DNA of 23,308 nucleotides from a virus. Of the stretch, positions 1-11,036 are shown piece after piece. The notes under the pieces were generated by a model. It saw only the letters and a list, made by a program, of their open reading frames with translations, ran no database searches and had not been told where the DNA came from. Made by a program: the position numbers and the translations under genes. The stretch is from positions 1 through 23,308 of IMG/VR virus record IMGVR_UViG_3300031524_001336. One strand, 5' to 3'. Each line of letters begins with the position of its first letter. Within the stretch, counting starts at the first letter, position 1.

Positions 1-62
1 GCGAGCACCTGCGAAAAGGCAATGCCCTCGGGGGTGCGGATTTTGAGGGTGCTGGTTTTCAT
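1..62 (-). CDS. 5' end of a host gene, RDD-family-like (truncated by window edge)
   Basis: Only the first 20 or so codons are present, reading leftward off the window. The start ATG is at 62-60 and the peptide begins MKTSTLKIRTPEGIAF. From memory, openings of this kind (a short strand followed by IRTPEG and then a small-residue segment) occur at the N-terminus of RDD-family membrane proteins of Verrucomicrobiota. The diagnostic Arg-Asp-Asp membrane domain would lie outside the window. The gene runs in the same direction as the integrase but lies beyond its terminator, so I read it as chromosomal sequence flanking the prophage. It could equally be another short-N-terminus protein, so the family call is tentative, though a real start is likely. 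Confidence 0.45.
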   Translation of the reverse strand, partial: MKTSTLKIRTPEGIAFSQVL

Positions 63-4686: not shown

Positions 4687-5261
4687 AGCCAGCATTCGAC
4701 GATGGCGGGGTCGTCGCCGTAAAAGCGGTCCAAGCAAGCCATCCCGGTGGGAAGGAGCTTGCGTGCGGCGTCCAGCGTGGGGGCGGTGCCAATAGGGCCG
4801 ATGCGGCGGTGCCCGCGCCAGCGGACGACGACGAAGGCATCGGCGTAATCTTGGGGGTGGTCGTAGATGACGTAGTAGTCCGGCCAGACACCAGCTCCGG
4901 GGCTGGTATAATCGTGGCAAGCGCCGCAGTAGCCGTAAATCACGTCGTTCGCATTATGGCTGGTGCGATGGCAGACGGGGCAGGTGATGCTGAACGGCTG
5001 AATGTCCGGGTCGGTGATGCTGAAAGAGTGTTTGTCTCTGAACAAGGTTTTACGGTGCAGGGCGGCGGCGGCTTGCGCAGCCTGGCGTTTGGTCATGCCG
5101 GGCGGGTCTTCTTCGGTGCCGCCGTAGCATGAGCAGCGTTTGTTCTGGTGGCCGACTGAACCGGCAAACATGCGCACCAGGCATTCTTGGTGGAAGTGGC
5201 CTTTCACGATGTCGGCGCGTTCGCCTGGCAGGATTTCCTCGTCGCAGTGGTCGCAGGTCAT
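4683..5261 (-). CDS. Cys-rich zinc-binding protein with three metal clusters
   Basis: A 192-aa protein. The N-terminus has Cys3-x2-Cys6 and His24-x2-Cys27, a LIM/RING-like half site; then Cys43-x-Cys45 in the striking segment CSCYGGTEEDPPGMTKR; then a zinc ribbon with Cys94-x2-Cys97 and Cys112-x2-Cys115. The last 70 residues are a mixed alpha/beta region (YYVIYDHPQDYADAF, then a Leu/Pro tail). The segment GSVGHQ...CSCYGGTEEDPPGMTKR is, from memory, strongly conserved among small environmental and phage proteins of unknown function. ATG 5261 overlaps the upstream stop as ATGA; the longer frame to 5762 is a shadow. The role may be in nucleic-acid binding or takeover of a host complex, but that is a guess. 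Confidence 0.75.
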   Translation of the reverse strand: MTCDHCDEEILPGERADIVKGHFHQECLVRMFAGSVGHQNKRCSCYGGTEEDPPGMTKRQAAQAAAALHRKTLFRDKHSFSITDPDIQPFSITCPVCHRTSHNANDVIYGYCGACHDYTSPGAGVWPDYYVIYDHPQDYADAFVVVRWRGHRRIGPIGTAPTLDAARKLLPTGMACLDRFYGDDPAIVECWL

Positions 5262-5851
5262 GAGCTTTTGGGGGCAAAGCCGACGGGGTGGAAGCCCATG
5301 GATTCGAGCACGACCTTTGCGGCGAGGCGCAAGGGTATTTCCGGTTGTTCGGACATAAGGAGGGGATAGAAGCGGGAGTCGGCCATCCTGCCAGGGGAGC
5401 CTATCTCGTCGCCCAGGCCGAAGTATTTCTGGTTGGCTGTGCGAATGATGGGGCGCACGCGCAGGCCGCAGGGCTGGTTGCGTGTCTCGGTGATGAAGTT
5501 GACGCATTCGACGCGGTCGGGTGATTCGCGGGGCATGACCGTCAAGGTGTGGCTGGTCTGGAAGAGCGCCCAGCCTTCCACCACTATCAAGGCGTGGGTG
5601 GCGGCGTGCGCGGCGCAGAAGATGCGGCAAGTCTTGGTGAATTCCTCCTTGGTGGCTTCGTCGCCGAACTCGTGTGACCAGACCATATATGCCGGGGGAC
5701 CGTCGGCGCTGAGTATGAACAAGGCCGGGTAGGTCATGCCTGGTGTGGACTCGCGCAGGCACCAGTCGGCGTAGTTCAAGGCTTGGGCGTAGAGATCGTC
5801 CATGGTTTTGTACTTTTTGGGCGGGTCGAAGCGGTTGGGTTCAAAGCTCAT
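5258..5851 (-). CDS. Hypothetical alpha/beta protein, early operon
   Basis: A 197-aa protein. I chose ATG 5851 because it overlaps the upstream stop as ATGA; an upstream ATG at 5881 would add ten residues. After a helical start (TMDDLYAQALNYADWCLRE) come alternating strands and helices: TYPALFILSADGPPAYMV, CAAHAATHALIVVEGWAL and a Thr/Arg-rich strand. The pattern of a hydrophobic strand followed by a conserved-looking EGWA resembles phage proteins of unknown function that carry an IVVEAW motif. There is no signal peptide, no membrane helix and no recognised catalytic set. It sits between two Cys-motif genes of the same operon. Confidence 0.7.
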   Translation of the reverse strand: MSFEPNRFDPPKKYKTMDDLYAQALNYADWCLRESTPGMTYPALFILSADGPPAYMVWSHEFGDEATKEEFTKTCRIFCAAHAATHALIVVEGWALFQTSHTLTVMPRESPDRVECVNFITETRNQPCGLRVRPIIRTANQKYFGLGDEIGSPGRMADSRFYPLLMSEQPEIPLRLAAKVVLESMGFHPVGFAPKSS

Positions 5852-6162
5852 GGCTGGGGGTGCATTATGTGTTTGCGGCAAACTGGTGTCAGCGGGGGGA
5901 ATTCCTCCCGGCTTTTGGTCATCACCATGGATTGGCCGGGGACGACCTGGCCGGCCACTTTCCTTTCAAAGCCTTCGGCGATGCGGAAGAACCGGCGCAA
6001 AGACCAGTGGTGGCGGTTCAGGTGCCCGCAATAGGCACACTTCACGGCTTTGGAGTAGCGCAGGAAGACGACGCACGCGGTCAGCCAGTCCGGGAAGAGC
6101 GGATTGGGTTTGGCGTCGAATTGCTGCACCTGGAATAGTGGCTGGCATTTCTTCTGCTTCAC
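5848..6162 (-). CDS. Small basic Cys-motif protein starting right behind the tRNA
   Basis: A 104-aa protein starting at GTG 6162-6160. The open frame continues upstream to 6366, but that extension only translates the tRNA gene at 6167-6241, so GTG is the sensible start. The only Shine-Dalgarno-like sequence upstream is GGAGG, 10 nt before GTG, which is the 3' acceptor strand of the tRNA. The protein has KCAYCGHLNRHHW near residue 48 and VCRKH near residue 96, giving Cys-x2-Cys plus His/Cys ligands for a possible zinc site, with a very basic helix RRFFRIAEGFERK between. Its stop overlaps the next gene as ATGA. Function unknown; nucleic-acid binding would fit the charge. Confidence 0.6.
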   Translation of the reverse strand: MKQKKCQPLFQVQQFDAKPNPLFPDWLTACVVFLRYSKAVKCAYCGHLNRHHWSLRRFFRIAEGFERKVAGQVVPGQSMVMTKSREEFPPLTPVCRKHIMHPQP

Positions 6163-6166
6163 AAAT

Positions 6167-6241
6167 TGGCTGCCTCCCCCCGAATTGAACGGAGTCTTCG
6201 CGGCTTCACAAGCCGTTGTGCTGCCATTACACCAAGAGGCA
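6167..6241 (-). tRNA. tRNA with GUG (His) anticodon on a Gln-like body, CCA encoded
   Basis: A complete cloverleaf can be drawn on the minus strand: acceptor TGCCTCT (6241-6235) with GGAGGCA (6177-6171) as 7 pairs including one T-G; D-arm GTGT-AATGGCA-GCAC with the conserved GG; anticodon arm ACGGC-TTGTGAA-GCCGC with four pairs and an A-C mismatch at 27-43; a 5-nt variable region; T-arm CTCCG-TTCAATT-CGGGG; discriminator G; and encoded CCA (6169-6167). The loop TTGTGAA gives anticodon GTG, reading His codons. However U1-A72, discriminator G73 and the TGGTGTAATGG D-arm are tRNA-Gln traits, and the G(-1)-C73 signature of tRNA-His is absent. It lies 6 nt past one gene and 4 nt before the next. 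Confidence 0.88.
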
Positions 6242-6247
6242 AATTGT

Positions 6248-7261
6248 TTATCGTCGGGAAAGGAGGTTGCGCAGTTGCTGGACAATTGTGTCCTGAATGT
6301 GTGTGTCCAATAGCACCACACGGGAACGCCCCAGCTCGCCGATGGCGCGGTCACCGTCTGCGGCATTCAACGCCGTGTGATTGTTGGCGGCGGGCGCACG
6401 GCAGATTATGGCGTAGTCACAATGGGACAGGGTATCGCGGTCCTTGCCGTCCGGGAAACGCAGGGCGGCGTCCAGGCCCGCCTCTTTCACTGCCGCCAGC
6501 AGCGGCGCTTGCTCGGGGACGGGAACGCCCACCAGGGCAATGCGCCGGGTTTTGGTGGTGGGTTCGTGAAAGGCTTCAAACCGGGGTTGGAACGGTTTAA
6601 GGGGTGACACCTTGGCCCCGGCGTGCGTTGCCAGCGCATATAGCAACTCGTTGTGCTGGGCTTCGCGGGCAAGGCGTTTGGCGGTCATCAATGCCTCCAG
6701 GCTGGGTTCGTCGAGATGCGCGAGCATTTCCTCGGCGGTCCACTTGCGGGGGACTTCAAGGGTGATTATTTCGGGCATGGGTGGTTCGCCAGGAGCGGGT
6801 GGCGGTGCCGCCGGGCGGTCCAGTAATTCCTTCCATTGGGTGCAAATGCTGCGGACGAGGGGCGCAACATTCTTGACGCTGGGGATGTCGCGTTGCAGTT
6901 CGCCGCGACCATCAAAGACTTTGCGTTGAGCGCGCTCGGCCAGCACGGTGGCGCTTTCCAACGGATCGGCCAGGCGGAGTGACACCCACTCGGAGGCCAC
7001 GGCACAGTAATCCTCATCACTCCAAGCGGTGGTTCGTTTGCGGACGGGTGCGGGTGACGGTGTGAGCGGTTTGGGGGTTGGGAAGTTGGCCTTGGCGGCG
7101 GCCTCGGCCTGTTCCTCGGCTTCCTGGGCGTCGTTGCGCCAGCGGTAGAGGACGCTGGGGTTCAGGCTCAATTGCGCGGCGGCGATTGGCACCGTGACCT
7201 CTTCGGCCAGGGCAAGCGCGCTGGCCCGGTAAGCCTCGTCAAATTGGCGGCGTTTTGCCAT
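6248..7261 (-). CDS. HTH protein with IS3 OrfA-like N-terminus and an unknown C-terminal domain
   Basis: A 337-aa protein. Residues 1-45 (KRRQFDEAYRASALALAEE, then SLNPSVLYRWRNDA) form the helix-turn-helix of IS3/IS911 OrfA-type transposition proteins. No transposase core follows. Instead there is a Pro/Ala-rich linker at 50-78, a helical block containing WSDEDYCAVASEW, a second Pro-rich linker near 150-162 and a C-terminal alpha/beta domain from about 238 (RRIALVGVPVPEQ ... DAALRFPDG ... CDYAIICRA) that looks Rossmann-like. I recall similar HTH plus alpha/beta proteins in phage regulatory regions, function unknown. It is most likely a domesticated DNA-binding protein rather than a transposase. 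ATG 7261 follows the previous stop by 3 nt, and the tRNA begins 6 nt after its stop. Confidence 0.75.
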   Translation of the reverse strand: MAKRRQFDEAYRASALALAEEVTVPIAAAQLSLNPSVLYRWRNDAQEAEEQAEAAAKANFPTPKPLTPSPAPVRKRTTAWSDEDYCAVASEWVSLRLADPLESATVLAERAQRKVFDGRGELQRDIPSVKNVAPLVRSICTQWKELLDRPAAPPPAPGEPPMPEIITLEVPRKWTAEEMLAHLDEPSLEALMTAKRLAREAQHNELLYALATHAGAKVSPLKPFQPRFEAFHEPTTKTRRIALVGVPVPEQAPLLAAVKEAGLDAALRFPDGKDRDTLSHCDYAIICRAPAANNHTALNAADGDRAIGELGRSRVVLLDTHIQDTIVQQLRNLLSRR

Positions 7262-9909: not shown

Positions 9910-10194
9910 ATGAATGATCCAAAAATTCTGCCAAAAAACGCGCCGCCACCTGCGGGGCCCAAAAAAGCGCCCAAGCTTGAGCGACTGCTGGTGTGGGCGG
10001 CCCCGCGAAAAAATCAGCGCATTTTGATCGCGTACAAGCCAGCGACGGACCCGCGCAATCCCAACAACCTCGTCACGGTGAACGTGAAGGACAACCAAAA
10101 CTTCCAGCTCAACATGGTGCTGCACGTTCACCGGGTCACGGACACCGTGTTTGATCTGGTGGGCGCGCTGCCGCGCTGGAGGGGCAAATGGTGA
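9910..10194 (+). CDS. Small phage protein of replication region, unknown function
   Basis: A 94-aa protein from ATG 9910 (a GTG lies two codons upstream). The N-terminus is Lys/Pro-rich (PKNAPPPAGPKKAPKLER), followed by strands RLLVWAAPRKNQRILIAY and LVTVNVKDNQNF, and a C-terminal LPRWRGKW. The ending RWRGKW, preceded by an Asp-Leu strand, recurs from memory in small phage proteins near replication genes. It overlaps the initiator gene by 7 nt. The beta content and basic charge could suit a small nucleic-acid-binding fold, but no function is established. Confidence 0.6.
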   Translation: MNDPKILPKNAPPPAGPKKAPKLERLLVWAAPRKNQRILIAYKPATDPRNPNNLVTVNVKDNQNFQLNMVLHVHRVTDTVFDLVGALPRWRGKW

Positions 10195-11036
10195 AAAAGC
10201 TCAACAACCATGGGACGGTCACATTGCCGCGCAACATGGCGGATGATGACCTGTGGGCGGCGGAGCCGTTCTGCCGGGGGCACGCGTGGCAAGACTTGTG
10301 GATGCTGGCCAATGATGAGGACAGGGAGGCGCGCTGGAAAGGTGTACCAGTGCCCGTAAAACGCGGCCAGCTTGCCCGTAGCGCCTGCGGACTGGCTGAA
10401 CGCTGGCATTGGTCCTCAAAAAAAGTGCGGGCCTTTCTGGAGGAGCTACGGGACCGCCGCAAGATCATCTACAAGACAAGCAATCTGGCGACCATCATCA
10501 CCATCCTTGACTACGAAGTTTTCAACACAGGGGAGGAAGACCCGCGCAACACAGAAGTAGAAGTGGAGGGAAACGCCGAAGGGAACGCAGAAGGGCACGC
10601 GGAACCACCACCAAAAGTCACAACAGAAGGGCACGCAGGGAAAGCGGAAGGCAACGCGAAAGTGGAGGCGGAAGGGCAACGGAACTATGGAACTATGGAA
10701 CCTTGGAATAGGAACCAAGGAACCATGGAAGGGCCGACCCCCGCCAAAAATGCTGTTTCCAAGCAACAGGCGATTGAATGGTGCCGGAAGAATCAGAGCG
10801 GGTACAGCGACGAAGAGGTAGCTGCCGCATGGAACGGTTTAAATGCCGTCGCGGTGGACGGGTTGTGGACCATCGGGGGGCGGCCGGTTTCCGACTGGCG
10901 CTGCGCACTGACGGATGAGTGTTGGAAGCGGCGGCAAATTTACGGCAAAAAAAATTCCGCGCCCACACGGGAGCGGGAGGCGGATGAACCGCCACGCCTG
11001 AAAGTAACCCCCCTGACTTTGGATGCCATGCGGTGA
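10188..11036 (+). CDS. DnaD-like replication initiator with iteron-bearing gene
   Basis: A 282-aa protein. Residues 20-110 form a winged-helix typical of phage replisome organisers: VPVKRGQLARSACGLAERW, then SSKKVRAFLEELRDRRKI, then ATIITILDYEVFN. Residues 118-170 are a low-complexity linker of EGNA/EGHA units created by a tandem DNA repeat. The C-terminal part (QQAIEWCRKNQSGYSDEE ... DWRCALTDECW) resembles the DnaB2/DnaD-type helicase-loading tail. It would bind the origin and recruit the helicase encoded just downstream, 12 nt after its stop. In several phages the origin lies within the initiator gene, which fits the repeats here. The start ATG 10188 lies inside the upstream gene. Confidence 0.78.
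   Translation: MVKKLNNHGTVTLPRNMADDDLWAAEPFCRGHAWQDLWMLANDEDREARWKGVPVPVKRGQLARSACGLAERWHWSSKKVRAFLEELRDRRKIIYKTSNLATIITILDYEVFNTGEEDPRNTEVEVEGNAEGNAEGHAEPPPKVTTEGHAGKAEGNAKVEAEGQRNYGTMEPWNRNQGTMEGPTPAKNAVSKQQAIEWCRKNQSGYSDEEVAAAWNGLNAVAVDGLWTIGGRPVSDWRCALTDECWKRRQIYGKKNSAPTREREADEPPRLKVTPLTLDAMR
10566..10682 (+). repeat. 12-bp iteron-like repeats within the initiator gene (candidate origin)
   Basis: Copies of the unit GAAGGGMACGCR occur at 10566-10577 (degenerate), 10578-10589, 10590-10601, 10626-10637, 10647-10658 and 10671-10682 (degenerate). The first three are head-to-tail; the rest are spaced. All are in the same orientation and in coding frame, giving EGNA/EGHA. Directly repeated 12-mers in an initiator gene are the layout of lambda-like origins. 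Confidence 0.55.
10681..10730 (+). repeat. 8-bp tandem repeats next to the iterons
   Basis: GGAACTAT, GGAACTAT, GGAACCTT, GGAATA (6 nt), GGAACCAA, GGAACCAT and GGAA follow each other without gaps. This block is more AT-rich than the iterons before it and could be the strand-opening element of an origin, or simply slippage-generated coding repeats. Confidence 0.5.

Follow-up and report, generated by a model that had tools for sequence, protein, structure and literature searches.

The window, an entire virus record of 23,308 bases and probably a piece of a phage genome, holds one tRNA gene, which is a rare variant: its anticodon, GUG, reads histidine codons, and both main marks for histidine charging in bacteria are absent. 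The gene is genuine and structurally complete. With a probability of about 0.5, it represents an accessory tRNA private to its lineage, with a histidine identity that was lost or never completed, uncharged or weakly mischarged and possibly decaying. An intact structure that fits no identity, its absence from the closest covering relative and the lack of a known competent synthetase make this the most economical reading.

The tRNA gene and its surroundings

ARAGORN and Rfam (RF00005) placed the tRNA on the minus strand, read from 6241 to 6167 (Table 1), with the sequence TGCCTCT TG GTGTAATGGCAGCAC A ACGGC TTGTGAA GCCGC GAAGA CTCCG TTCAATT CGGGG GGAGGCA G CCA. The RF00005 score was 43.2 bits (gathering threshold 29, E-value 2.6e-6), with the acceptor, D, T and anticodon arms all present, as in a member of the family. 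In the cloverleaf the D/T-loop contacts and the CCA are intact, every position of the T-stem is paired, and the anticodon stem has four of its five pairs; its computed forced energy, -25.0 kcal/mol, is close to the unconstrained minimum of -27.3 kcal/mol. A tRNA-shaped pattern fitting the gene occurred in 0 of 100 shuffles of the window. The original prediction of a cloverleaf with U1-A72, G73, an encoded CCA, the loop TTGTGAA and the anticodon GUG was borne out, and the sequence likewise confirmed base 34 at 6209, an A27-C43 mismatch and A48. Further features are A15-A48 and the T-stem pair C52-G62; G-1 is not encoded, the base there being T.

Table 1. Features of the tRNA operon and the integrase in the window
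Feature	Position	Strand	Remarks
tRNA gene, anticodon GUG (base 34 at 6209), U1-A72, G73, encoded CCA, T at -1	6167..6241	-	ARAGORN; Rfam RF00005; sequence
Tyrosine-family phage integrase	219..1490	-	phage temperate
ORF of 337 aa, N-terminus matching Pfam HTH_Tnp_1	6248..7261	-	stop 6 nt upstream of tRNA
Probable small ORF of 104 aa, GTG start, CxxC-type motif	5848..6162	-	starts 4 nt after CCA
Next gene of tRNA operon	5258..5881	-	32% identical to L005 4638-5183

The mismatch and A48 had also been read as signs of decay. Decay is possible on other grounds, but these two features are not strong marks of it: among 950 tRNAs of the loci retrieved, which are mostly viral, 27-43 was unpaired in 111 (A-C in 11 of them) and A15-A48 occurred in 40, so that neither is rare in phage tRNAs, and the argument from them is weakened; C52-G62 (8 of the 950) is rarer than either. 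The score of 43.2 bits lies below the best 150 of 210 Rfam matches (nearly all tRNAs) from 12 other phage loci, the 150th having 53.4 bits. The intact cloverleaf argues against advanced decay.

The tRNA is packed between two co-directional minus-strand ORFs (gaps in Table 1), a placement expected of a maintained gene, which counts against the main reading. A promoter-like site was not found directly upstream, so that expression would be from the operon transcript. The small ORF on the 3' side is without a family match. Other phage genes in the window encode a DnaD-like helicase loader (10188-11036), a primase/helicase and an SU10-type major capsid protein, and the match to a terminase is weak; an aminoacyl-tRNA synthetase was not found among the ORFs scanned. 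Two tandem diverged matches to the helicase loader, of which the window has one, were seen at L003 160-1257 and L004 776-1873. Another viral contig (L140, 5104-5436) carries a permuted tmRNA (RF04321, 122 bits).

Only one relative, L005 (from a 36.7-kb contig), covers the left arm of the window. Its nucleotide identity to the right arm is 75-80%, and it has the left operon too, more distantly related than the right arm; the counterpart of the 337-aa ORF (L005 5602-6096) has a similar start and lies in the matching place. At the place of the tRNA, L005 has no tRNA or remnant, and a different small gene is found there. Since the flanking operon occurs in L005 without it, the tRNA is not a trait common to these two phages.

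The tyrosine integrase indicates that the phage is temperate. The left 62 bases of the window (1-62, minus strand) look like the beginning of a protein-coding gene, MKTSTLKIRTPEGIAFSQVL, perhaps one of the host that adjoins the integrase. As a lead only, MKTSTLKIRTPEGIAFSQVL resembles the beginning of Verrucomicrobiota membrane proteins of the RDD family. A phage with such an integrase and one lone tRNA might complement a host tRNA gene that the integrating prophage had disrupted. This tRNA-dependent lysogeny is documented in actinobacteriophages, in which the phage tRNA has the disrupted host isotype and must work (PMC10865867), but the tRNA of the window is without the histidine determinants, ARAGORN found no tRNA or fragment near the integrase, the tRNA shares no stretch longer than 8 nt with the flanks of the integrase, and the left 62 bases resemble the start of a protein gene and not of a tRNA, all of which makes such a role extremely improbable. 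The idea that attP lies within the tRNA, or that a piece of a tRNA sits by the integrase, was rejected, no match being longer than 8 nt.

Histidine identity and the isotype of the body

In bacteria, histidine identity is set by G-1, C73 and the anticodon (PMC9976931). The window tRNA has the GUG anticodon; the predicted absence of G-1 and C73 was confirmed, T and G standing in these positions. An unbiased pattern of GUG with an encoded CCA gave at least 120 loci in IMG/VR, and ARAGORN confirmed 92 GUG tRNAs among the matches listed. Within these 92, G-1 was present in 79, C73 in 86 and G73 in none. Four of the 92 listed have U1-A72 together with a normal G-1 and C73, so that U1-A72 does not rule out a histidine origin, and four have neither G-1 nor C73 and carry A73. 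The stricter pattern GUG+A72+G73+CCA, verified on the window, matched no other contig in the whole of IMG/VR (2.9 million contigs); in 84,980 bacterial and archaeal genomes it gave 10 matches, one of them a tRNA (Marinomonas lutimaris), the patterns requiring an encoded CCA and thus passing over hosts that do not encode it. A GUG tRNA with G73 and U at -1 is a very rare combination.

The host HisRS may not need G-1:C73, which counts against the main reading. A working tRNA-His for such a host would have a precedent in some alphaproteobacteria: Caulobacter tRNA-His lacks G-1 and forms with its HisRS a pair orthogonal to the E. coli one, the two differing in the discriminator and in position 72 (PMC3875453). 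The four listed viral tRNAs with A73, and CAY codons that stand for histidine in the phage genes, also speak for a working tRNA. The absence of G73 among the 92 listed and the single Marinomonas tRNA in the genome scan, which required an encoded CCA, speak against it, and we consider this explanation unlikely. An error of sequence or assembly at position 34, 73 or -1 is highly improbable: the window is a single metagenomic record and the Marinomonas parallel likewise comes from one assembly, but for a tRNA-His the errors would have to affect no fewer than two independent positions (-1 and 73), and with an error in the anticodon alone the body would still be poor in every class.

The body had been described as glutamine-type. 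Many glutamine determinants (PMC9976931) are indeed there, namely G73, U1-A72, G2-C71, G10, U35, G36 and A37, while G3-C70 (C3-G70 in the window), U34 (G34) and U38 (A38) are missed; three of the four acceptor determinants (G73, U1-A72, G2-C71, G3-C70) are thus present, and the anticodon-loop set (U34 or C34, U35, G36, A37, U38) is broken by G34 and A38. The fit is not specific. From the asparagine set (PMC9976931), G73, G34, U35 and A37 are present and only U36 is missed (G36), which leaves the set incomplete and the asparagine anticodon one base away; U1-A72, G73 and A37A38 occurred in 26 of 26 tRNA-Asn surveyed in the fetched loci, tRNA-Gln being more mixed. The D-arm, exact or near, is common to phage tRNAs for Trp, His, Gln and Asn and is typical of phage tRNA-Trp. 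A search for U1, A72 and G73 with this D-arm and any anticodon gave one tRNA-Gln and one tRNA-Asn. A glutamine-derived body as the unique reading was rejected, its features being found also in Asn, Trp and some phage His tRNAs.

A position-specific isotype classifier (949 tRNAs, anticodon masked, 84% leave-one-out accuracy) gave the body a weak best score for Trp (1.8), followed by Glu (-11.6), Gln (-13.0), Asn (-23.4) and His (-42.2), figures that show an atypical body and not its ancestry, as the training set is mostly phage and without an identified host of this phage. By part, the acceptor alone was assigned to Asn, the D-arm to Trp and then Gln, and the T-arm to Phe; with the D-arm left out, a best-class score as low as that of the window tRNA was seen in 0.4% of real tRNAs. 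The body fits no isotype well. The original prediction is supported in the lack of the histidine acceptor marks, and only in part in the glutamine class of the body. The gene is not clearly a glutamine tRNA converted from UUG by one base, as had been proposed; a parent of the kind found in Marinomonas is lacking.

Charging and decoding

Under the main reading, the window tRNA would be the single accessory tRNA in the left-arm minus-strand operon of a temperate phage, and would be released from the transcript of the operon by the enzymes that normally process tRNAs. Its GUG anticodon pairs with CAU and CAC, but with U at -1 and G73 a normal bacterial HisRS should charge it very poorly. It would then be largely uncharged, or would weakly receive a wrong amino acid from a synthetase (Gln-, Asn- or Asp-type) that tolerates G73 together with part of this anticodon. 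Little effect on decoding is expected, because the host tRNA-His does the work, and the tRNA would have no selected function.

The codons of the phage bear on what the tRNA could insert. CAC and CAT codons of the window genes aligned with H 122 times and with Q 16 times in relatives (in which no such tRNA was found), and the histidine residues of the relatives mostly align with CAC/CAT in the window; histidine codons make up 94 of 5,500 in the window. This contradicts the recoding of His to Gln that had been suggested, and recoding was rejected.

Mischarging at a low level by a non-His synthetase (Gln, or Asn/Asp), with missense at histidine codons that the phage uses or tolerates, is a different proposal and resembles the case of tRNA-ProX. 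It could draw on the Gln and Asn determinants that are present (PMC9976931) and on the natural occurrence of hybrid-identity tRNAs (PMC11415595), but Gln U34, U38 and G3-C70 and Asn U36 are missing, the ORFs scanned yielded no dedicated synthetase, the alignment of CAY codons favours H, and no conservation was found; we regard it as decidedly unlikely. Very unlikely, too, is a phage hybrid-identity tRNA that reads histidine codons and accepts Gln, Asn or Asp, causing statistical missense in proteins of the phage or host.

The original prediction further named a synthetase trap and a decoy for anticodon nucleases, and evidence for neither emerged here. GUN anticodons are targets of the colicin E5 type. 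A role as a decoy for host anticodon nucleases that act on such anticodons, or as a tRNA insensitive to them, would accord with the evasion of tRNA-targeting defences by phage tRNAs (PMC10264068; PMC11555353) and with the passage of PMC10639084 in which GUN anticodons are Q34 substrates. However, TTGTGAA is an ordinary GUG loop, rescue by a phage tRNA-Tyr needed the anticodon and the stem-loops and presumably a function in translation (PMC11555353), and nothing specific in the window speaks for a decoy, which is the least probable of the explanations weighed.

If the window tRNA is charged, the enzyme would show how loosely a host synthetase can read identity. If it is uncharged, it would be a clear case of a phage tRNA unable to do what its anticodon says, and would caution studies of codon compensation against tallying phage tRNAs on the anticodon alone.

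Comparison with known tRNAs

Hybrid-identity tRNAs occur in nature; for one of them, tRNA-ProX, the pair A15-A48 is given as a trait (PMC11415595), but it is not diagnostic at the frequency given above. The mistranslating tRNA-ProX of Streptomyces shares with the window tRNA this pair and the disagreement between anticodon and body. It is, however, a conserved family with the partner ProRSx and a clear proline body, whereas the window tRNA is a singleton of no clear class. The case of tRNA-ProX shows that a functional alternative is possible, but there the tRNAs make up a family with a dedicated synthetase, and neither of these was found for the window tRNA.

The Marinomonas lutimaris gene (L044 4274-4348, NZ_JAHLLW010000006.1) shares U1-A72, G73, the encoded CCA and GUG with the window tRNA. 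It is a tRNA-Gln copy in a tandem tRNA-Gln/tRNA-Met array with U34 changed to G, otherwise identical to the adjoining tRNA-Gln(UUG). The same classifier calls it, correctly and strongly, Gln; it is a clear tRNA-Gln point mutant, and the window tRNA has no such parent. A second GUG tRNA in the same genome is of the ordinary type found across the genus, and the variant is unique among 49 Marinomonas genomes (absent from the other 48), which suggests that a redundant copy has mutated in this genome alone.

Among annotated phages, the best BLAST match was the tRNA-Trp of Mycobacterium phage Sparky (93.5% over positions 2-32, D-arm included), which has a CCA anticodon and whose likeness is confined to the 5' part. 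The nearest tRNA by identity (69%) was that of L002 (1-73, minus strand), a phage GUG tRNA in which the 17-nt D-arm is identical, U1-A72 is present, base -1 is G and position 73 lies beyond the contig end. The nearness of both the Sparky and the L002 tRNA is partly by construction, because they were fetched with a pattern taken from the window tRNA. GUG and U1-A72 are shared by five phage tRNA-His (L139, L166, L071, L125 and L002), and in L139 and L002 the D-arm, too, is largely or wholly the same. That phage tRNA-His genes differ in their first acceptor pair can be seen from L139, L071, L125 and L166. These four encode G-1 and C73, whereas the window tRNA has T-1 and G73.
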